From Owenia fusiformis (Eukaryota > Annelida > Polychaeta > Sabellida > Oweniidae): a stretch of 64,000 bases of DNA. The stretch spans positions 30,250,926 through 30,314,925 of the forward strand of contig CAIIXF020000002.1 in NCBI GenBank assembly GCA_903813345.2. The letters are read 5' to 3'. Both the position numbers and the translations under genes were made by a program. Below, one piece after another: positions 4,401 to 35,105 of this stretch (its first letter is position 1; each line of letters opens with the position of its first letter). The notes under the pieces are model-generated. The model saw nothing but the letters and a program-made list of their open reading frames with translations, searched no databases and was not told the origin of the DNA.

Positions 4401-7400
4401 TACATGTCTATAGTTTTTATTAGGTTTTATTAATTTCCAGATAAATCTCAAATTTTCAAAAAAAAATTCCTAAATTTGGTCAGCAAAATATTTAGTTTTA
4501 ACACATACATGTTCTCTATGTTCATGAATGTTGAAAATTGAAAATGTCAATTTGAAAGAATATTTTTATTTGGTCCTAAGTGTAAATAAAAAGACAAAAA
4601 TTACCTCTGAGAGACATTGTGGCATGTCCCTGTGCAAACTCATCGTGATAATTCTGACACTCGGCACATAGATTCTTCTTACAGTCAAAACACCTTATGA
4701 CAGCTTCCACATCTTTGCCATGTTTCACCTCGCAAGTCTTACATGTCGGTGTAGACTCCAAGGATGTTACCTGAGATATCTCAACTAGAGTCTTTATGAG
4801 AATGCTCTCACGAAGTTCATCTATATCCATGATCACATGTGTTTTCTCGCACTCGTGGCATTTTATCTTGCTCGTTGTTTCTTCATTTTCGTCTGCTTTC
4901 AGTTTGTCCAAGCATTTGTGACAGTATGTGTGTAAGCATGGTAGGGTTTTAGGGTTTTTGAAAACCTTAAAACAGATTTTACATGTTATTATGTCACTAA
5001 TACGTGTCTCCATGCTGAACTACATTATATTTTGTGCAAAAACAACATAATCAATTGGACTTTGGAACATAGAATTGATTCATACACAAGCTTTATTTAC
5101 ATTGCTATCAATTATTAGACTAAACTACCTAACTGTTTCAATACTGTGTTTGTGATTTTCTGTACAATTCATGTATTTATTTTAATACAGGATTTATCAC
5201 AATTGATAATGAGACTGAAGTGTATGAGTTCCGCTATTAAAGCACATTTGGGTCAGATTTTCCAAGCATGTGTAATACAGCATACAGCATTTTGAATAGT
5301 TTCTCTTCCAATGATAAGATTTAGATATTTTATTCTTGGGTTGTCAGTATGACATTAAACTTAATAAGAGTTGTACTGTAGACTAGCTTCTTCTTTAAAC
5401 ACAATTAATGTCATGTGATATACCCATCCTAAAAAAGGTATTTTACAAGTTACTTCAAGTTCAAATGATCTGTTGATTTGAGTTTGAAATTTGACCTTCA
5501 TCTGTAACAATTGTTACACTTTTGTAACCATTTGCAGGTGGTGACATTTTGTCATGTTAATGCCTTGTTTTTGTCATAATGGCAGTCAGAGACTACATAT
5601 GTAACAATTGTTACACTTCTGTAACCATTTACAGGTGGTGACATTTTGTCATGTTAATGCCTTGTTTTTGGCTCACACAGTGAGCCTATGGGATTGACCA
5701 GGCGTCCGTCCGTCCGTTGGTCCGTCCGTCCGTCCGTCCGTCCGTCCGTCCGTTGGTCCGTCCGTCCGTCCGTTGGTCCGTCCGTCCGTCCGTCCGTCCG
5801 TTGGTCCGTCCGTCCGTCCGTCCGTCCGTTGGTCCGTCCGTCAACATTGGCCGCACAAATTAAAACTGCTATTCGGATTGAGTCATATCCACATTAATTT
5901 TATGCATATCCATAATGCCTATTTGACCTATCATCGCCATTTCCCAAGTTCGTCCGGTTTCCGAGAAATTGCGGATTTTGACGTCAAAAAGTCAAATTTT
6001 CTGTAAATACTAGACACTTTGTTGAAGTAGAACTTTCAAATAACTTTTAGTAGTTGGTGTATATGCAACTTATGTCCTCTGAAGATTTCAAAGCTCTTGG
6101 AATTACGCTTTTTGGTGTTTACTCTATAAAATTTGAAAAAAAGTAGGACTTAGTCATTTTCAGGAAACTTTCTCATGTATAAAGTCAATGGCAGGTTTTG
6201 TGATTGACAAGATTCTCAAAGTTTGCCTTATACTTGATCATTTCCTGCAATAAATTACATCATTAATAGATTTAAGCATTCCCTACATATTTCTCAATAT
6301 ATGTCAGCATCAAATTTTTACCGTTTTTGAGATATTTGACGTCAAAAAACAGTAAAAATAAGTTATTTTTCAACTTGCTTCAATTTGACCAAATCTTTTT
6401 TTGAAAATCATCTACAAGTTGCCAGGAGTTCAAATCTGGCATTAGTTTTAGGATTTGACCTTTACTTGACCTTCAGTGACCTTCGAAAGGTCAAAAAAGT
6501 TGATTTTTCAAATTGATTTTTGGATGTAAATTTTGGTCAGCTTAATCACAAAAGACCTTACTGAGCTCTGAATAAGTAAAATTTTCAAGGTCAAAGGTCA
6601 TCAAACTAGGTCACACAACTATGCTATCTAAGTTTCTCAAAGTTCGAGACTACAAATCCAAATCAATATTTTTGTTTGAAAGTCAGGATATAAATTCCTC
6701 TGAAGGTTCCAACCTGTGTGAGCACAGGACCGTGGGTCCTTCATTATTTGTCATAATGGCAGTCAGGGACTACATATGTAACAATTGTTACACTTCTGTA
6801 ACCATTCGCAGGTGGTGACATTTTGTCATGTTAATGTCTTGTGCTTATTTTGACAAGATTTCCAATGAACCTCACAGTCGCAAACGAATCCATGCCAATA
6901 TATTGATTCTTTTCATTTCCATGTATCTATTTATTTGGTTTCTATTCCAGGATGAGGCTAAAGATGATTCCAAAAAGAGGCTCCAGGAATGGAAGGCCCA
7001 GAAGTTAGAGCGTTATGGTGTACCACCACCATTGGTTGGCCTCAACAGCCCTATCCCCAGTCATGTACGACAGGATTTCAAACCCCCTACTAAGCTAACA
7101 GGGACTCCTCCCCCTACTAAGCTAACAGGGACTCCTCCCCCTACTAAGCTAACAGGGACTCCTCCCCCTACTAAGCTAACAGGGACTCCTCCCCCTACTG
7201 AGCTAACAGGGACTCCTCCCCCTACTAAGCTAATGGGAACTCCTGGGCTAAAAACCAGGAATAAAGGTCCTGGTATAGAGTTTTCCCTTGTGACTACATC
7301 TGTGGAAGGTGACATTAAACACCATAAAGAGCAGGCACCTGTGAACAGGAGATTTATTCCCCTTAACCACAGTAAGCCAAGTGGTTTAACCAGAACTTCA

Positions 7401-10613: not shown

Positions 10614-13600
10614 ATGGACTTCAATTATCTGCTATATTCAATGTTATTATGTTCAATGTGTTGTGGTCTGACATTTGGACAGGGAAGTGTCCCTATTGTT
10701 TTAGCCACATGGGGATTTGCACAACAGCCAACTGACAAAGGTAACACTTATAATAATCATCTTTGAGATTTATAGTGCATTATTCTGTTATCACCAATTC
10801 AAAGTAGTGGTACTGAGTGTTATAGCAAACATTTTTGTGACTGGTATAATGGTATTCAATATCTGTATCTGTAACGTATTTTTACACTTTTGGGATCATG
10901 ACCTGGTGTTGCCATTTTGTTAATCCCTTGTGTTATATTACTATGATCAAAAACAAGATCAGCTATGGTCAAAAATATCAGCAATGATCAAAGACAAAAG
11001 ACCAACTCTGCAGCTAAGGTCGAAGACAAGGCCAGCTATGGTCGAAGAGAAGACCAACTCAAAATATAAGATCAGCTATGATCAAAGACTAGACCAGCTA
11101 TGATCGAAGATAAGATCAGCTACAGTCAAAGACAAGACCACCTATGTTCGAAGACAAGATCAGTTAAGATCATTTTGTCAAGTTAATGTCTTGTTTTATT
11201 ATGTCACCACCACTGCTGATGACATACAGTATTGTTATAGTCTCCAACTTATTTGTGGATAATGCTCAACTTTTGGCATTTTATTTTATATTTATGATTT
11301 TCTTTATTTCATAGCATGGGAGAAACTCCAAGCAAATAAAGGCCCCTTAGATGCAGTACAATCTGGTTGTGAATATTGTGAGTTCAACCACTGTGCCTCA
11401 TCAGTAGGTTATGCCAACAACTTTGATGAGAATGGGGAGACGACACTTGATGCAATGCTGATGGAGGGGTAAAGAGGCATTAGTATTATCATTTAAAGGA
11501 ATAAGAATGGATGGAGAGTGCTTTCCAAGAAATGTCCAAAATAGGTAGTATTGAAATACGTGACATCCCAATCTCATACAAACCCAAGTGGTTCAAAATA
11601 AATCATTTTCAGAAATCTGTATTTGTAAATTTTGCATCAGTTTTGGAAGTTGTGATTTTATAAATAGTGAGGAACCATATTTATGTTTTAGAAAGACACA
11701 TAAGGTTGGTGGTGTAGCTGCTATTAAGAGGGTAGTGAATGCTATAGGTGTTGCTAGGGCAGTAATGGATTACACAACACATACATTGCTTACAGGAGAG
11801 TCAGGTATATTGTATATGTATATGGCTCTATCATAGTTACACAATACAGTTGTGGATAGCTCTGTTGTAATGTGAAGCTACATTATTTTAGAGTTCAAAT
11901 GCAACATTATTCCAATATGTGTCTATTTCAGCCACCAATTTTGCCAGGGAGATGGGGTTCCCTGTGTTAGAGAAAGCCACATTAACCAATGCAACATAAT
12001 TCCAATATGTGTCTATTTCAGCCACCAGTTTTGCCAGGGAGATGGGGTTCCCTGTGTTAGACAAAGCCACATTAACCAATGCTACATTATTCCAATATGT
12101 GTCTATTTCAGCCACCAGTTTTGCCAGGGAGATGGGGTTCCCAGTGTTAGACAAAGCCACATTAACCAATGCAACATTATTCCAATATGTGTCTATTTCA
12201 GCCACCAGTTTTGCCAGGGAGATGGGGTTCCCAGTGTTAGACAAAGCCACATTTACCAATGCAACATTATTCCAATATGTGTCTATTTCAGCCACCAGTT
12301 TTGCCAGGGAGATGGGGTTCCCAGTGTTAGACAAAGCCACATTAACCAATGCTACATTATTCCAATATGAGTCTATTTCAGCCACCAGTTTTGCCAGGGA
12401 GATGGGGTTCCCAGTGTTAGACAAAGCCACATTAACCAATGCAACATTATTCCAATATGTGTCTATTTCAGCCACCAATTTTGCTAGGGAGATGGGGTTC
12501 CCAGTGTTAGAGAAAGCCACAATAACCAATGCTACATTATTCCAATATGAGTCTATTTCAGCCACCAGTTTTGCCAGGGAGATGGGATTCCCAGTGTTAG
12601 AGAAAACCACATTAACCAATGCAACATTATTCCAATATTTGAGGTGGAGATATAGGGACTGCCAACCTAACAATCGTAAAGTAAGTTCATAATCATAGGC
12701 AATAGAATCCAATTGTTCATGCCACCACTTAATATAACATCCATTCAGATTAAAGAAATATATGAGTTTTTATATGTTTATAAGGTTTAATTGATTTTAT
12801 TCTTTAAGTTACGGAGGATTATCTTTGAAATTGTGACGTAATATTTTGTAATTTATAGAATAAATGTGATATCCTAAAACTTTCCAAGGCTATCAGCTTA
12901 TTATCCCAACGAACGAAGTTCGGTAGGGATATAGTGAAGCCCTCCGTCCGTCCGTCCGTCAGTCAGTCTGTCAGTCCGTCAGTCCAGGGGCCGTGTATGG
13001 GGGGTCAGGAAAACAGAAATTTTCGCTAATTTTTAGATCTCTCTGAAGTATAGCTTTATTATACTCAAATGAAAGGCAATTAAGAGTAGATTGCAAATAT
13101 TGTATTTTTTTTCTGATTCGAGCCTCGTAAAATTCAAAATGGCCGTCTAATGTACGATTTCGCAATAATTTTTCGATCCCTTCAAAGTATGGCTAGATTA
13201 TACTCAAATTGAAGGATTTGTGGAGTAGATCACAATTATGGTATTATTTTTCAGATTTGTACCTCAGAAAATTCAAAATGGCTGCTTAGCAGAAATTCGC
13301 AATTCTAAAATCTAATTTTTTCAATTTTAACCAAAGTAATGAGTATAATTGATTGGAATTCGGTAATTGATATTTTGTTCGTTGGGATTTGCTACTCCGC
13401 GGAGTTGCCATTATCTAGTTCCCCTTTTCATAGTACCCATCTCCACTCTCACTGCACTCACTCCTGGAGATGGTTAATATCCACTCATGGATAAAAATTA
13501 CGTTCCTCAAAAATTGTAGGATGTCCTGTATACATAGATACATATAAAAATTCTCATACAATCTTTTCCATGAAATAAATTGAATATTATCTTCTTGAAT

Positions 13601-16574
13601 TTACAATTCAGAATGTGAAGAACAAGTGTTTGTGTGGCCCTTATTCTCCTTTAGACAGTGTTGAAGAACATTCCCCCAATGAACTTACTACCTGGAAAGA
13701 CTTGATATTGCTCAAGAAACTAGCAGGAGATGCCTCAATGGAGAATCTGGATGATCATGATACATTAGGTTAGGTTGCAATAGATTATTTTACATTGATT
13801 AAAAGGGGTTTAAGTAATAGGGGTCGGAAAATGGCAGCAAAAATTTATTTTGCCAGATAGACTAGTCATAAAAATTGAAGAATTATCCATATATGAAGTC
13901 AGAGTTGTTGTACATATAAACTTGTACATAACTATACCTCAGTTGATATTATACATGATACAATGCATTATGCCTTTTTTATGGTGTCCATTAAGTCTCT
14001 ACAATTGCAATACAAAGTCTCTAACCCTTGTAAAGAGACTTTTTAGGTCTCTACAATTGCAATACAAAGTCTCTAACCCTTGCGAAGAGACTTTTTTAGT
14101 CTGTACAATTATAATACAAAGTCTCTAGCCCTTGTAAAGAGACTTTCTAAGTCTCTACAATTACAATACAAAAGCTCTAACCCTTGTAAAGAGACTTTGA
14201 AGTCTCTTTGCAATTATAATACAACGTCTCTAATCCTTGTATACACCACAGTGGCGTAGCGTGGGTATTTTTGAGTGTACGCCACGAGGGAGCGAAGCGA
14301 ACGATCTTTGAGGGGGGTTCGGGGGTGGGTCCTCCCCCAAGAAAATTTGAAAATGAGATTGCAGTTGAAGCGTTCTGGGGCGTTTTAAAATACGAAATTC
14401 CGACGAAATGGACTAATGACATTTAAATTATTGGTCATTTTATCCATTTTTAAAGTGTGAGGCAATTCAATCTAAAAATCAACTTTTCTCTAAATTTTGA
14501 GAGTATGCCATGGCGTTTTATGCGTATATGACGCTACGCCATTGCACCAGCCTCAGGGGACTAATAATAAGAATGATCGACCCATCCAAATTGAGTTTTT
14601 TAAAAGTTTTAAAATAAACAAGGCAAAGAACAGTCTATATATATTCATGGATTTGGCTTCACACCAGTTCTTGATAAAATCACCATGTTTAATATTTGTC
14701 AACACCACCTTTTTATTGACTGTGTTCGGCGGTCTGTGTCTGTGACAAATAGCAGGTGGTGACATTTTGCATACCTTGTTATATTTTGATTTGAAGGTGT
14801 ATTGGCTATTGATGCTAAAGGTGATATTGCAGCAGGAGTGACCACCAATGGGATGAGACGTAAAGTGCCAGGGTATGTGTGCCTATTAACACCCCCCCCC
14901 CCTCTTTAATCAAGGGGGTTGTTCAATAGATATTAACACACAAATGCTCTATAACTTTCATTTTAATCAATGAATCAATTTGATATTTTCAGTGATTGAA
15001 GGTTGTGTCCATACTGCCCAAATTCTTATGAGTATTTTGCATTATTTTCATGTATTTTGCACACAGATGCCACTTCTGTGGGCAACATACGATACAACCC
15101 AACTAAATAGATTATGAAATATAACATAATACAAATTATTAAGGGATGGTGTCCAAATGTCAACAATAGTTGAAAAGCCAAGTTAATTTTGTTATGATTT
15201 AACTACCACCCCCCCCCCTCCAGCCCCCTTTCGCTTTTATAAAGAAAGTTGATTTACACACATTCCTGCGGCAAAAAATCATGATTTACAGTAACAACAA
15301 TCATCATTTACCCTTCCAATGTAATAAAATTTAAGTTTTCAATAACTACATGTACTTGCATTTTAACACCATTGCTCATTTTGTATTTCATTGTAGAAGA
15401 GTAGGCGATTCCCCAATCCCAGGTTCAGGGGCATATGTGGATAATGATATAGGGGGCGCTGTGTGTACTGGTGATGGAGATATCATGATGAGATTTCTAC
15501 CCAGGTAAAATAATTGGTACCAAATAAATCACCTCTCACAAACCTGTTTGCATTTTTTATGTGGCGTTAAACCTTTTGAGTTTATGTGAAGAGAATATAT
15601 TCCTACATGTAATTATCGTATGATCTGTAAAATGAAGCCTTCTGATTGGTCAGTTCTTGTGCTGTACTAATCTGTATTGCTACTGAGATTGTCCCAATTG
15701 ATCATCTCCGTCGCAATACAGAAAATATTGGTACGGAGGGAACAATCTCAGTAGCAATACAGAGGATCACACGATAAAAACGTTGTATGATTACAACTTA
15801 TTTTCTGACATGTTACAGTTACCATGCAGTTCAGATGTTACAGTTTGGATTGACGCCCACCCAGGCAGGACACGATGCCATGCTCAGAATCTTGAAAGTT
15901 TATCCTTTCTTCTCAGGGGCCTGTATTGTTGTCAATAAACAGGGAGAACATGGTGAGAAAACAATACAAGGAACACATTCCATAAATGAGTCAACTCTTA
16001 TTACCCTGCCATTGATATACTCATAACATTTTTGATCATTGATATACTCATAATATTGCTATACTCAATGGTGTACTCATAATATTGGTCTACTCATTGA
16101 TGTACTTATGATATTGATATACTCATTGATGTACTATTGGTGTACTCATTGGTATTTATAATATTGGTAACTCATTGATGTGCTCATAATATTGGTGTAC
16201 TCATTGATAGACTCATAATATTGGTCTACTCATTGATATACTCATAATATTGGTCTACTCATTGATGTACTCATAATATTGATGTACTCATTAATGTACT
16301 CATAATATTGGTGTACTCATTGATTCTTAGGTGAACATCTCTCATTGTGTAATAACTCATTTACAGATCCCTGCTACCTATTATGTTACACCCACCCATC
16401 AGAGGACAATCTGTAAACTTAACTGTTCAAAAAATATTTTGACCTTTTTCAGGAGCAGGGTGTACTATGGCTCGGTTCCCTATGTATGTGAGGACCAGTA
16501 ACATGGATAGTGCCACACTTTTGAGAGTAAACTGTACAATACCTGAGACACCATATTTTAATATAAAGACTTAG
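10614..16574 (+). CDS. AGA: N(4)-(beta-N-acetylglucosaminyl)-L-asparaginase (aspartylglucosaminidase)
   Basis: This lysosomal N-terminal-nucleophile hydrolase cleaves the GlcNAc-Asn bond of N-glycoproteins. Nine exons in phase give 369 residues: 10614-10740, 11315-11468, 11692-11804, 12562-12680, 13612-13768, 14797-14872, 15397-15504, 15819-15952, 16453-16574. The start gives a hydrophobic signal peptide followed by [10 protein letters not shown]. Conserved blocks are [50 protein letters not shown] with the self-cleavage and catalytic threonine (residue 222, codon 13762-13764), [16 protein letters not shown] and [17 protein letters not shown]. The human protein has 346 residues. The model uses the last of eight tandem acceptors for exon 4; upstream acceptors at 12022, 12112, 12202, 12292, 12382 and 12472 would add 30 residues each in frame. 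The acceptor at 11932 leads to a stop. The catalytic machinery looks intact. Confidence 0.95.
10940..11180 (+). repeat. Degenerate ~25-30 bp minisatellite in AGA intron 1
   Basis: Repeated GATCAGCTATGGTCAAAGAC-like units with much variation. Non-coding. Confidence 0.7.
11893..12639 (+). repeat. AGA: 90 bp tandem array duplicating the AGA exon 4 splice acceptor (8 copies)
   Basis: Each 90 bp unit is 13 nt of intron end (GTGTCTATTTCAG or GAGTCTATTTCAG) plus 77 nt of exon beginning CCACCAGTTTTGCC. Acceptor-adjacent exon starts fall at 11932, 12022, 12112, 12202, 12292, 12382, 12472 and 12562. Because 90 is a multiple of three, copies 2-8 stay open in the AGA frame; copy 1 contains TAA. Copies are nearly identical. 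The last copy runs into the conserved exon end (RDCQPN). Confidence 0.97.
12905..13420. mobile_element. (CCGT)n-bearing repeat element in AGA intron 4
   Basis: The element begins near ATCCCAACGAACGAAGTTCG, has a short CCGT/CAGT tract at 12945-12985, then repeated CAAAATGGC and TATACTCAAAT motifs. It ends near TTCGTTGGGATTTGCTACTC, an approximate inverse of the start. A reverse-oriented relative lies at about 37400-37985. Non-autonomous, no coding content. Confidence 0.6.
13990..14245 (+). repeat. ~60 bp tandem repeat in AGA intron 5 (4-5 copies)
   Basis: Units contain TCTCTACAATTGCAATACAA then GTCTCTAACCCTTGTAAAGA. Open frames here are by-products of the repeat. Confidence 0.85.
14251..14544. 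mobile_element. Short TIR element with GTGGCGTAGCG ends
   Basis: The left end AGTGGCGTAGCG is inverted at the right end CGCTACGCCATT. CACCA occurs just outside both ends and may be the remnant of a target duplication. The end motif resembles hAT-type non-autonomous elements; that assignment is inference. Confidence 0.55.
15610..15780. repeat. Hairpin-forming element in AGA intron 7
   Basis: TGTATTGCTACTGAGATTGT is inverted as ACAATCTCAGTAGCAATACA about 60 bp later. Outer flanks also pair (TCGTATGATC against GATCACACGA). Probably a small foldback or MITE. Confidence 0.7.
16015..16330 (+). repeat. Short-period minisatellite in AGA intron 8
   Basis: Repeated ACTCATAATATTGGT and CTACTCATTGATGT units in variable order over about 300 bp. 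Non-coding. Confidence 0.9.
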
Positions 16575-16885
16575 GGCAACTTTGTAAATGAGGACCAGTA
16601 AAATGAATAGTGCCACACTTTTAAGAGTAAACTGTACAATACCCGAGACACCATATTTTAATATAAAGACTTAGGGCAACTTTGTAAATGAGGACCAGTA
16701 ACATGAATAGTGCCACACTTTTGAGAGTAAACTGTACAATACCCGAGACACCATATTTTAATATAAAGACTTAGGGATACTATGTATATGAGGACAAGTA
16801 ACATGAATAGTGCTACACTTTGAGAGTAAACTGTAAATACCTGAGACACAGTCTTTTGATATAAAGACATAGGGCTACCCTGCAT
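16481..16885 (+). repeat. AGA: 100 bp tandem array copying the end of AGA (4 copies)
   Basis: The unit covers the last ~85 nt of coding sequence, the stop codon and the first 3' UTR bases. Its AGGACCAGTA anchor recurs at 16491, 16591, 16691 and (as AGGACAAGTA) 16791. Only the first copy is coding; the rest form the 3' UTR. The period of 100 is not a multiple of three. The last copy is most diverged. Confidence 0.95.
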
Positions 16886-27600: not shown

Positions 27601-30600
27601 ACAATTACAATGGAACTCAAGCAGTTATTTGATACCTGGTATAATTGTCGCTGTTTGAGCCAATCTGTAACTGTTAAACACTTTCTGACTTTTAGCTGTC
27701 CATTAATGAAAGGTATTTTCTCCTCATCAGTATCCTCAAAGGCAGAATATGAGCTCCGAGGCGTATGAGGCTCCTTATCTTCTTCAGATCCCTCATGATT
27801 GTGTTCCTTAACCCCAATATGAAAGATAATGCTAAATACTGCACCCAGTCCTACCACAACAAATGTGATATCCTGAAAAGCATCAGAAATTATAATTATA
27901 ATTTGAAATTGCAGCTATAACACAGCGTAAACAGCATTCATTCAATATTGATAAGCGAGATGACCTATCAATAAAAATTACACTTGTATTTTGAAAGTTG
28001 AAAGGTTTCTTTGTGATTTTATACAAATGTGAAACATTAAATGAAAATGTGCTACCTCTAAACAAGCGGTGTGGGTATCCTTAAAGTGACAAATATCCGC
28101 AACGCTTGTTTAGAGGTAGGTCATATCCGATAAATGTTTTAAATTTTTTAATTCACACAGAAATGACTTTCAAAATGCAAAAATATTTTTTTATCGAGAG
28201 GTCATGGCGACCATCAATACTGAATATAAGAGTTTAAACGGTTTATTAAAGCGGCAATTTCGAATTATTTGCTTTGGAGAAAGGATGAATTCTTAGTGTG
28301 TCATTAAGGAATGAAGTATATACAACTATGGACACATTTCCCCTTTATTAGATGTCCTATACAAATGGGTTAATATAATTGAGCACCCAACGTGCCTTAG
28401 TTTATGAAATATCACAAATTCAAAAATGACCGTTAAAGTCTGTACCGTGTTCTCAGTAATGGCGGATATTTTTTTATTTTATTTATTTATTATTGCTACT
28501 AACTCGATAAAACGCCTGGGCTGGCTTGAACTGTCTAATATGGTCCTAGCCAGGATAATTATATCAGTTCCTGTCAGATTAATACGGGGAGCTGTTTCTA
28601 CCGCAGGTTTATGCCCTATGGTGTCTGTGTGAGATAATAGAATAGGTGAAAGTACACATCCCCGTTTAAGGCCAGATTCAACTCCGAACCATTATTCACT
28701 GACAAAATTCCAAATATAACTTTGTTTTTGACACATGCATATACATTTTCAATACACGCCTGGCCTGACCCTGGATTTCTTTCTTTCAGAGAGATATGAA
28801 AATATATTTCACGATCAATAACGTCGAAAGCTTTAGATATGGAACAGAGGGTAAGAATCCAAATATTTAGCAGCTACAGTTTTTAAAAAATCCACTAGAG
28901 TTTTTAAAGAACCTACCGCAGAAGCTGGCATTTTTCAGTTTTCAGAATCTACTGCAAAAGCTACAGTTTTTGAAAAATCTACCTCAAATACTACTGCTTT
29001 TCAAAAATCTATCGTAAAAACTACCCTTTTTCTAAAATTTACCGCAAAAACTGCTGCTATTTTTAAAGGAATACTTTTAAAAAAAATCTTCGCACTTCGC
29101 AACTACCGTTCTATCTAAAATTAACTCTAAAACAACCGTTTTTCAAATCGACTGCATAAACTACCATTTTTCTAAAACTCCCGCAAAATACATGTTTCTC
29201 CCGCATCTTAAAAAAATACCAGAAAAACTATCGGATTTGGGAAAAAATCGATCGCAAAAGTACCGAAATTAAAAAATATACAGGCATAAAAATTTGATTG
29301 AACTGGCTATGATTATTGACTTACTCTGAATTTTGATGTGTCTTGGCTGGACAAGGTGCCCTTTACGTCCACAACATCATTAGCATTGTCTGTTTGGTGG
29401 ATGCCCAACATCAACCATGTGATGAGATAAACCAACAGGTTTGAGATCACAGTGAATGCATACCTACAAACATACTCCGGAACTATAAAAATTACATCAT
29501 AACACATAGATGGCATAAAGTTTAGTGGATTGGACTACAACGTAAAGTGAGACAGTTTGAAAAGGTAAGGTATTTGAAGCAAGAATTCTAACTTAGGCAA
29601 ATGCCTCTACTGTCTTTGTACAGGTACAGGCCTGAGTAAAATGGGTCACATCACTTGCTTCCGCTGTCATAGTAAGCATATTCAGATATCACATGAAAGC
29701 CCCAAAATATCGAAAGTTGAAAAAAGACATGCATAAATGTACTAGTATATGATAGTAAACATTTAATCTATATGTATAATATATATCACATTTAATCTTT
29801 AAAAAATTCTAATACCCTACCTAATTGCACTCTCCTGTGAGTTAGAGGTCAGATCTGGTATGAGAGAGAGATGGAATATTTGTGTTGATGCCCATCCAAA
29901 TTGGAAAATGACAACAAAGAAATGATCATACCCTACCTTATTGCATTTAGTTCAACTCTCTCCTGTGAGTTAGAGGTCAGATCTAGTATGAGAGAGAGAT
30001 GGAATATTTGTGTTGATGCCCATCCAAATTGGAAAATGACAACAAAGAAATGATCATACCCTACCTTATTGCATTTAGTTCAACTCTCTCCTGTGAGTTA
30101 GAGGTCAGATCTGGTATGAGAGAGAGATGGAATATTTGTGTTGATGCCCATCCAAATTGGAAAATGACAACAAAGAAATGATCATACCCTACCTTATTGC
30201 ATTTAGTTCAACTCTCTCCTGTGAGTTAGAGGTCAGATCTAGTATGAGAGAGAGTTGTGTTGATGCCCATCCAAATTGGAAAATGACAACAAAGAAATGA
30301 TCATACCCTACCTTATTGCATTTAGTTCAACTCTCTCCTGTGAGTTAGAGGTCAGATCTGGTATGAGAGAGAGATGGGATATTTGTGTTGATGCCCATCC
30401 AAATTGGAAAATGACAACAAAGGGGGAGTAATAAATAAACTGGGCCCACTTGGCGGAATGTTCACACGAAATACACGCATTGAAGAGGAATGGGAAGCTG
30501 CAGATACAACAAATTGTACCTGCAAATACAATGAAAAAAACATAATCTGCAAGTACAATAAAAATAAAATTGAGATGTAACATATTGCACCTGAAAGTGA

Positions 30601-32949: not shown

Positions 32950-35105
32950 ACAAATTAAACGAATTTGTTGAGACCACAACGTCTTTGTCACGTTCTTTTT
33001 CACATACATGTATATGTATTTTTCACGTTTAAACCCCGTTTCGTCAACGTCAAAATTAACTGTTTCGACAACGTTGCAAATAAACCAATTTCGTGAGGAC
33101 ATAGCGTCTTTTTGTAACGTTTCCTGCACTTACAAATATTTTTTTACATTTCAATTGAAAACACGTTTCGACAACGTTGAAATTAACCGTTTGCACTACG
33201 TTGAAAATGAACCATTTTGGTCAGAAAATGACGTCTTTGTAACGTGTGTTACAATTACAAATATTTTTCACATTCAAACCATGTTTTGACAACGTTACAA
33301 TTAGCCATTTTCACTACGTGGCAAATGAACCAATTTGGTGGGAAAACAAGGACTTTGTAACGTTTCCTAGACTTACAATTATCTTTCACATTTAAAACAC
33401 GTTACGACAACGTCAAATTTTACTGTTTATATTACGTAGCAAATGTAACAATTTGGTGAGAACTGCAACGTCTTTGTAACGTTTTCTACACTTACAAATA
33501 TCTTTCACATTTAAAACACGTACGTTACGACAACGTCAAATTTTACCGTTTACATTACGTAGCAAATGTACCAAATTTGGTGAGAACGCAACGTCTTTGT
33601 AACGTTTTTTACACTTACAAATATCTTTCACATTTAGAACACGTTACGACGACATCAAATTTTACCGTTTATATTACGTAGCAAATGAAACAATTTGGTG
33701 AGAAGTGCAACGTCTTTGTAACGTTTTCTACACTTACAAATATCTTTCACATTTAAAACACGTTACGACAACGTCAAATTTTACCGTTTACATTACGTAG
33801 CAAATGTACCAAATTTGGTGAGAACACAACGTATTTGTAACGTTTTTTACACTTACAAATATCTTTCACATTTAGAACACGTTACGACAACATCAAATTT
33901 TACCGTTTATATTACGTAGCAAATGAAACAATTTGGTGAGAAGTGCAACGTCTTTGTAACGTTTTCTACACTTAGAAATATCTTTCACGTTTAAAACACG
34001 TTACGACAACGTCAAATTTTACCGTTTACATTACGTAGCAAATGTACCAAATTTGGTGAGAACACAACGTCTTTGTAAAGTTTTCTACACTTACAAATAT
34101 CTTTCACATTTAAAACACGTTACGACAACGTCAAATTTTACCGTTTATATTACGTAGCAAATGAAACAATTTGGTGAGAACTGCAACGTCTTTGTAATGT
34201 TTCCTGCACTTACAAATATTTTACACATTTAAAAAACGTTACGACAACGTTAAATTTTACCGTTTATATTACGTAGCAAATGAAACAATTTGGTGAGAAG
34301 TGCAACGTCTTTGTAACGTTTTTTACACTTACAAATATCTTTCACGTTTAAAACACGTTACGACAACGTCAAATTTTACCGTTTACATTACGTAGCAAAT
34401 GTACCAAATTTGGTGAGAACACAACGTCTTTGTAACGTTTTCTACACTTACAAATATCTTTCACATTTAAAACACGTTACGACAACGTCAAATTTTACCG
34501 TTTATATTACGTAGCAAATGAAACAATTTGGTGAGAAGTGCAACGTCTTTGTAACGTTCTCTACACTTACAAATATCTTTCACGTTTAAAACACGTTACG
34601 ACAACGTCAAATTTTACCGTATACATTACGTAGCAAATGTACCAAATTTGGTGAGAACACAACGTCTTTGTAACGTTTTCTACACTTACAAATATCTTTC
34701 ACATTTAAAAAACGTTACGACAACGTCAAATTTTACCGTTTATATTACGTAGCAAATGAAACAATTTGGTGAGAACTGCAACGTCTTTGTAATGTTTCCT
34801 GCACTTACAAATATTTTACACATTTAAAAAACGTTACGACAACGTTAAATTTTAACGTTTATATTACGTTGCAAATGAACCAAACTGGTAAAAAGTCAAC
34901 GTCATTGTTACGTTTTTCACACCAGCACAAATTTCGAACTTCACTAACACATTACTACAACGTCATTTTTTAACCATCCACCGACGTTTTGCTGAATGTC
35001 ACAATTTTACGTTACTTTGACGTTTATATAACGGAAATATACAACGTCTCCAGTGAACTTATATACCACATATGAGTGACGTTACATGGACGTCACTGTT
35101 TGCTG
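32950..35105 (+). repeat. Dimeric ~119 bp satellite-like array (about 17 units)
   Basis: Units carry ACGTCTTTGTAACGTTTTCT, CACGTTACGACAACGTCAAA and ATTACGTAGCAAATG. Two versions alternate: A with TGTACCAAATTTGGTGAGAA and B with TGAAACAATTTGGTGAGAA, giving a ~238 bp dimer. One B-B break occurs near 34190-34310. A ~594 bp second-level duplication is marked by TTTCCTGCACTTACAAATAT at about 34200 and 34795. Outer units are most diverged. The right end reads GACGTCACTGTTTGCTGGGA. Rich in ACGT and CpG. Confidence 0.95.

Follow-up and report, generated by a model that had tools for sequence, protein, structure and literature searches.

A tandem array of splice acceptors at AGA exon 4 in Owenia fusiformis and its probable origin as a boundary-spanning minisatellite

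When one exon is preceded by a row of near-identical splice acceptors, are these alternatives among which the gene chooses, or copies of a repeat whose unit happens to include a splice site? The question is raised by an aspartylglucosaminidase (AGA) gene of the annelid Owenia fusiformis, located within the 64,000-nt stretch of genomic DNA analyzed here (the window). We favor the second answer, at a probability of about 0.8: the array at exon 4 would be a "mirage," a minisatellite with a 90-bp unit that by accident takes in the exon's 3' splice site.

The exon 4 array and its acceptors

Splicing in silico verified the exon joins, GT/AG borders, and open frame of the AGA gene model. Its product matches the Pfam family Asparaginase_2 (E 1.5e-73), and the first 285 residues align with human AGA (1apy_A; E 8.7e-43). 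The gene and its array are laid out as follows, in window coordinates.

10614–16574, plus strand: AGA (aspartylglucosaminidase) gene, nine coding exons, 369 codons via acceptor 8
10614–10740, plus strand: exon 1
11315–11468, plus strand: exon 2
11692–11804, plus strand: exon 3
11898–12638, plus strand: eight-unit 90-bp array across the intron 3/exon 4 boundary (TRF, unit alignment)
11932–12021, plus strand: copy 1, downstream of the first acceptor, with TAA in the AGA frame
12022–12561, plus strand: copies 2–7, one acceptor apiece, no stop in the AGA frame, 30 residues per copy
12562–12680 (119 nt), plus strand: exon 4 proper, from acceptor 8, ending at GTAAGT; product without inserted block
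13612–13768, plus strand: exon 5
14797–14872, plus strand: exon 6
15397–15504, plus strand: exon 7
15819–15952, plus strand: exon 8
16453–16574, plus strand: exon 9, whose stop ends at 16574

A sequence-only reading of this locus had claimed eight tandem acceptors 90 bp apart, which TRF and the acceptor positions confirmed, and a unit in which 13 nt of terminal intron precede 77 nt of exon, which the unit alignment bore out. The tandem units are near-identical (TRF period 90, 8.2 copies, 96% matches, score 1356), and the AGA alignment, together with the exon joins, fixes the authentic boundary that they span. The first exon bases of acceptors 1 to 8 are 11932, 12022, 12112, 12202, 12292, 12382, 12472, and 12562, which packs eight near-identical acceptors into 631 nt. 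All eight units carry the splice signal TCTATTTCAG, with CC as the first exon bases. As had also been claimed, acceptors 6 and 8 differ from the rest, reading GAGTCTATTTCAG where the other six read GTGTCTATTTCAG, with GAG in place of GTG. The repeat begins 34 nt upstream of acceptor 1, leaving 21 nt of exon-derived sequence before the first intron end.

The AGA identity, phase, and reading frames given by the same reading were likewise correct. Spliced to exon 3, acceptor 1 meets a TAA in its first block; acceptors 2–8 are open and add 6 to 0 blocks of 30 residues, respectively. Chance is excluded as the origin of the array, because none of five dinucleotide shuffles of the window contained an array with a period of at least 25.

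The copies bear a pattern of concerted evolution, with a homogenized interior and diverged edges. Copies 3 and 6 are identical across 90 nt, and copies 2–6 share 96.0%–100% among themselves over 75 nt. The most diverged are copies 1, 7, and 8, whose similarity to other copies over the same length is 93.3%–94.7%, 92.0%–94.7%, and 92.0%–96.0%, respectively. When the complete assembly was searched at the DNA level, with scoring confined to the best candidates, the array was placed at a single site, and no second allele was seen among these candidates.

The gene's own acceptor and the weight of the open frame

Two comparisons bear on which of the eight acceptors belongs to the gene. The product of acceptor 8 differs in length from human AGA by two residues at the exon 4 block, with no block-sized insert. 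In a paralogue on C2 at 1.308 Mb (L020), exon 4 is matched once, and TRF shows no array over the matched exon. Because human AGA aligns without an insert and the paralogous exon is single and array-free, we take acceptor 8 as the putative ancestral boundary and copies 1–7 as probable additions on the intron side. The last acceptor is most likely the only one normally used.

Local motifs do not favor acceptor 8. It has GAG rather than GTG in its tract, which makes the tract slightly poorer, and a branch-point-like motif (yTnAy) at −37 is kept at acceptors 2–7 and absent at acceptors 1 and 8. We surveyed this motif at −15 to −50 in the other acceptors of three AGA genes; 20 acceptors were attempted and two were dropped, as no AG was found, with paralogue acceptors placed by a simple rule. 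Because just 10 of these 18 carry the motif, it is not a requirement, and its absence does not disqualify acceptor 8. Intron 3 would measure 127 nt with acceptor 1, the shortest form, versus 757 nt with acceptor 8, which in turn gives the shortest exon 4 (119 nt). Under intron definition, acceptor 1, with the shortest intron, might be preferred, and minor use of acceptors 2–7 is possible.

Seven acceptors in one open frame invite an isoform interpretation, but the open frame is weak evidence for isoforms. The 77 exonic nt of each unit are open by origin, and a unit length divisible by three is expected about one time in three. We estimate that about four further stop-free codons then suffice, and that such a frame would open by chance roughly one time in four. 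Moreover, the minus strand is also open across the whole array, from 11888 to 12769, spanning every copy, which further weakens the AGA frame as evidence; another plus frame is open from 11876 to 12370, about five copies. The 11 distinct changes among units, a small number, comprise four synonymous, six replacing, and one stop (expected synonymous fraction 0.23–0.28), near the expectation for sequence without coding constraint. Two consecutive units, searched as one block, had no match among Pfam families at E values up to 0.01.

Given just the repeat and no alignment, AF2 returned an all-beta model, which we read as a predicted beta-solenoid; the mean pLDDT of the five models was 89.9 (the best), 81.7, 80.0, 78.4, and 41.9. 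AF2 is reported to tend toward confident but unrealistic beta-solenoids for perfect repeats (PMC11795689). Given this tendency, the model is likely an artifact, and we set it aside rather than count it for a coding block.

Boundary arrays at other exons

Duplicated exon edges of this type recur at other genes of the genome. We identified three further splice-boundary arrays, along with a second array in AGA itself that runs from its last coding exon into the 3' flank.

L021:4793–6167 (C2, about 30.008–30.010 Mb), minus strand: 15-acceptor array at exon 6 of an AGA paralogue, unit 90 or 89 bp
29830–30422 of the window, minus strand: donor array at an MFS_2-like exon (TRF), 128-bp unit, one of them shorter
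L074 (C6:9937900–9939300), minus strand: 11-acceptor array at an ABC-transporter-like exon, unit 114–115 bp
16489–16875 of the window, plus strand: second AGA array, from the last coding exon into the 3' flank (TRF), 100-bp unit, 3.9 copies

The array in the second AGA paralogue (L021, C2 at 30.006 Mb) sits at another exon and is independent of the exon 4 array. Fourteen of its 15 acceptors lead to a stop; the last alone is open, and it reads AAG rather than CAG. The MFS_2-like exon spans about 30519–30312 on the minus strand, its start placed by eye, and is followed by five GTAGGG donors (after 30312, 30193, 30065, 29937, and 29821), of which the first alone leaves the exon open, the other four leading to a stop. 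The gene, which we take to be MFSD12, has a Pfam MFS_2 match (E 2.6e-5) that at 23.4 bits lies below the cut-off of 27, and its product matched no PDB chain at E values up to 0.01. On C6, the exon is read as that of a probable ABC transporter from its sequence and its position beside an ABC_tran match; 10 of the 11 acceptors lead to a stop, the last is open, and the first has diverged.

Among the four splice-boundary arrays, the one at AGA exon 4 is thus alone in staying open, and the other three give an open product from the exon-proximal site only. The second AGA array copies the C-terminal codons along with the stop codon and a portion of the 3' flank. Counting this last-exon case, all five arrays extend outward from the exon edge and leave one intact copy beside the exon.

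How common such arrays are can be gauged from family searches (L002–L019 and L046–L070), in which none of 43 exon loci, a small and non-independent sample with several loci from the same genes, carried an array of period at least 25 over the matched exon. One of the 43 (L046) has a boundary array in its flank. With no exon overlain and one flank array, the rate per exon appears low or moderate. As to how the four splice-boundary arrays came to light, the window accounts for two, and another was met in a gene selected because it is a paralogue.

Other repeats were seen in passing. Beyond the first exon of the MFS_2-like gene, at 33149–34916, a 119-bp unit recurs about 15 times with 88% similarity, and at 7083–7244 a 27-bp unit is present six times at 96% similarity, which would be a nine-residue repeat if coding. 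Nine 10-kb stretches yielded two arrays that by eye resemble repeats of whole exons of cysteine-rich domains (L029:3422–5065, 285 bp, 5.8 copies; L034:2225–3214, 201 bp, 4.9 copies) and that are not counted among the boundary arrays.

Some gene content bears on the host. Three matches to Eryth_link_C, a family of annelid hemoglobin linkers, exceed the cut-off and fall within 15 kb of one another on C6, and the PDB entry "Hemoglobin linker 1" is matched weakly (E 0.0025). GC content is 33%–37% in nine 10-kb stretches, lower than in amphioxus; with the linker matches, this speaks against amphioxus, a host that the mirage literature would suggest. Searches for COX1 and hemerythrin gave no match. 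The hemerythrin result leans against an annelid, though genes split among short exons can escape such a search. A GFP-family search was blank, but it was blank in its controls as well and carries little weight. A tektin comparison showed an animal tektin-2, best matched to 8snb, a sea urchin structure.

Origin, alternatives, and known systems

In the origin we propose, the exon 4 array would have expanded through replication slippage or unequal crossing-over, a mode suggested by the inner copies being most alike and the edge copies most diverged. It would have been tolerated because no signal is missing from the exon-adjacent copy, which lets the extra copies pass as intron. Exon 4 would be defined from its donor at 12680, with the spliceosome mainly joining exon 3 to acceptor 8. 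Leaky splicing to acceptors 2–7 may yield occasional longer proteins, and splicing to acceptor 1 a decay-prone transcript, in both cases without a selected function; copy number probably varies between individuals. More generally, duplications probably occur in many places, and those at exon edges would persist because their extra copies are readable as intron or untranslated sequence.

The contrasting proposal is a functional, tunable ladder, in which choice among acceptors 2–8 is regulated to insert 0 to 6 extra 30-residue blocks, copy number sets the spread of isoforms, and acceptor 1 serves as an off switch that sends transcripts to decay. Its attractions are the seven acceptors in frame and open and the yTnAy motif retained at six of them, and were it true, the locus would be a rare mirage turned coding. 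We consider it very unlikely given the roughly one-in-four chance of the frame, the lack of any sign of constraint in the few changes among units, the lack of a Pfam match for the block at the threshold above, and three companion arrays for which such a ladder is impossible. Of the isoform series first put forward for this locus, then, the in-frame acceptors stand, but an AGA that aligns through acceptor 8 without an insert and sister arrays that are closed speak against the series itself; neither the series nor the non-productive switch proposed for acceptor 1 gained support beyond the open frame and the branch-point-like motifs.

A less elaborate proposal is that acceptors are used by chance according to their strength, lowering AGA output and making copy number an unselected expression variant. 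So many near-identical acceptors within 631 nt, with branch-point-like motifs favoring 2–7, would lend themselves to such leakage. We nonetheless judge it unlikely, since the amphioxus globin and Adh3 cases are reported to be regularly spliced (PMC3087553) and since the paralogue with 15 acceptors should suffer more, although most of its coding exons remain recognizable by tblastn (query residues 42–331 of 369). Least probable, and only barely credible to us, is that the true locus has one or few copies and the array is an assembly artifact: tandem arrays are difficult to assemble, but private substitutions distinguish the copies, which argues against simple duplication during assembly, and comparable arrays occur at other genes.

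Arrays of this kind are a natural experiment in how splicing settles on a single site when 5 to 15 near-identical ones are present. Gene predictors could call false isoforms at them.

Known systems resemble the AGA array to different degrees. As with NAGNAG tandem acceptors, neighboring acceptors compete within one exon. NAGNAG acceptors lie a few nucleotides apart and do not stem from a repeat array. Variable internal tandem repeats also occur where exons meet introns in human segmental duplications and are described as altering gene structure (PMC2812944); these too are minisatellite expansions at an exon-intron border that are able to alter splicing, but they concern recent primate paralogues, have transcript support, and average 30 bp per unit (PMC2812944). 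Among annelids, the portions considered here of a report on earthworm intronic minisatellites do not describe boundary arrays (PMC12783039), and a literature search, with subscription papers thinly covered, found no annelid boundary mirage among the titles and abstract openings listed.

The closest parallel is found in amphioxus, where mirages are described as tandem repeats spanning exon-intron boundaries in Adh3, the globins BflGb6 and BflGb9, and troponin C; PGBD5 holds similar repeats (PMC3087553, PMC3902484). The BflGb6 mirage has six and three units in two haplotypes (PMC3087553). Regular splicing is reported to be undisturbed by these repeats (PMC3087553, PMC3902484), as RT-PCR indicated (PMC3087553), and mirages have been proposed to be general in cephalochordates and to give rise to new introns (PMC3087553). 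The amphioxus work covered haplotype variation and splicing, whereas the AGA array is described here at the level of genomic sequence. The two also differ in the genes affected, in the host, an annelid rather than a cephalochordate, and in the AGA unit being divisible by three and open. They share boundary-spanning units, which in many cases repeat the splice site, on acceptor as well as donor sides, and inner copies that are homogenized to the exclusion of edge copies (PMC3087553, PMC3902484). The kind of array is therefore a known one, and the annelid lineage looks new for it; two splice-boundary arrays in 64 kb, plus two from a small, partly chosen sample, suggest that the process extends more widely than lancelets.
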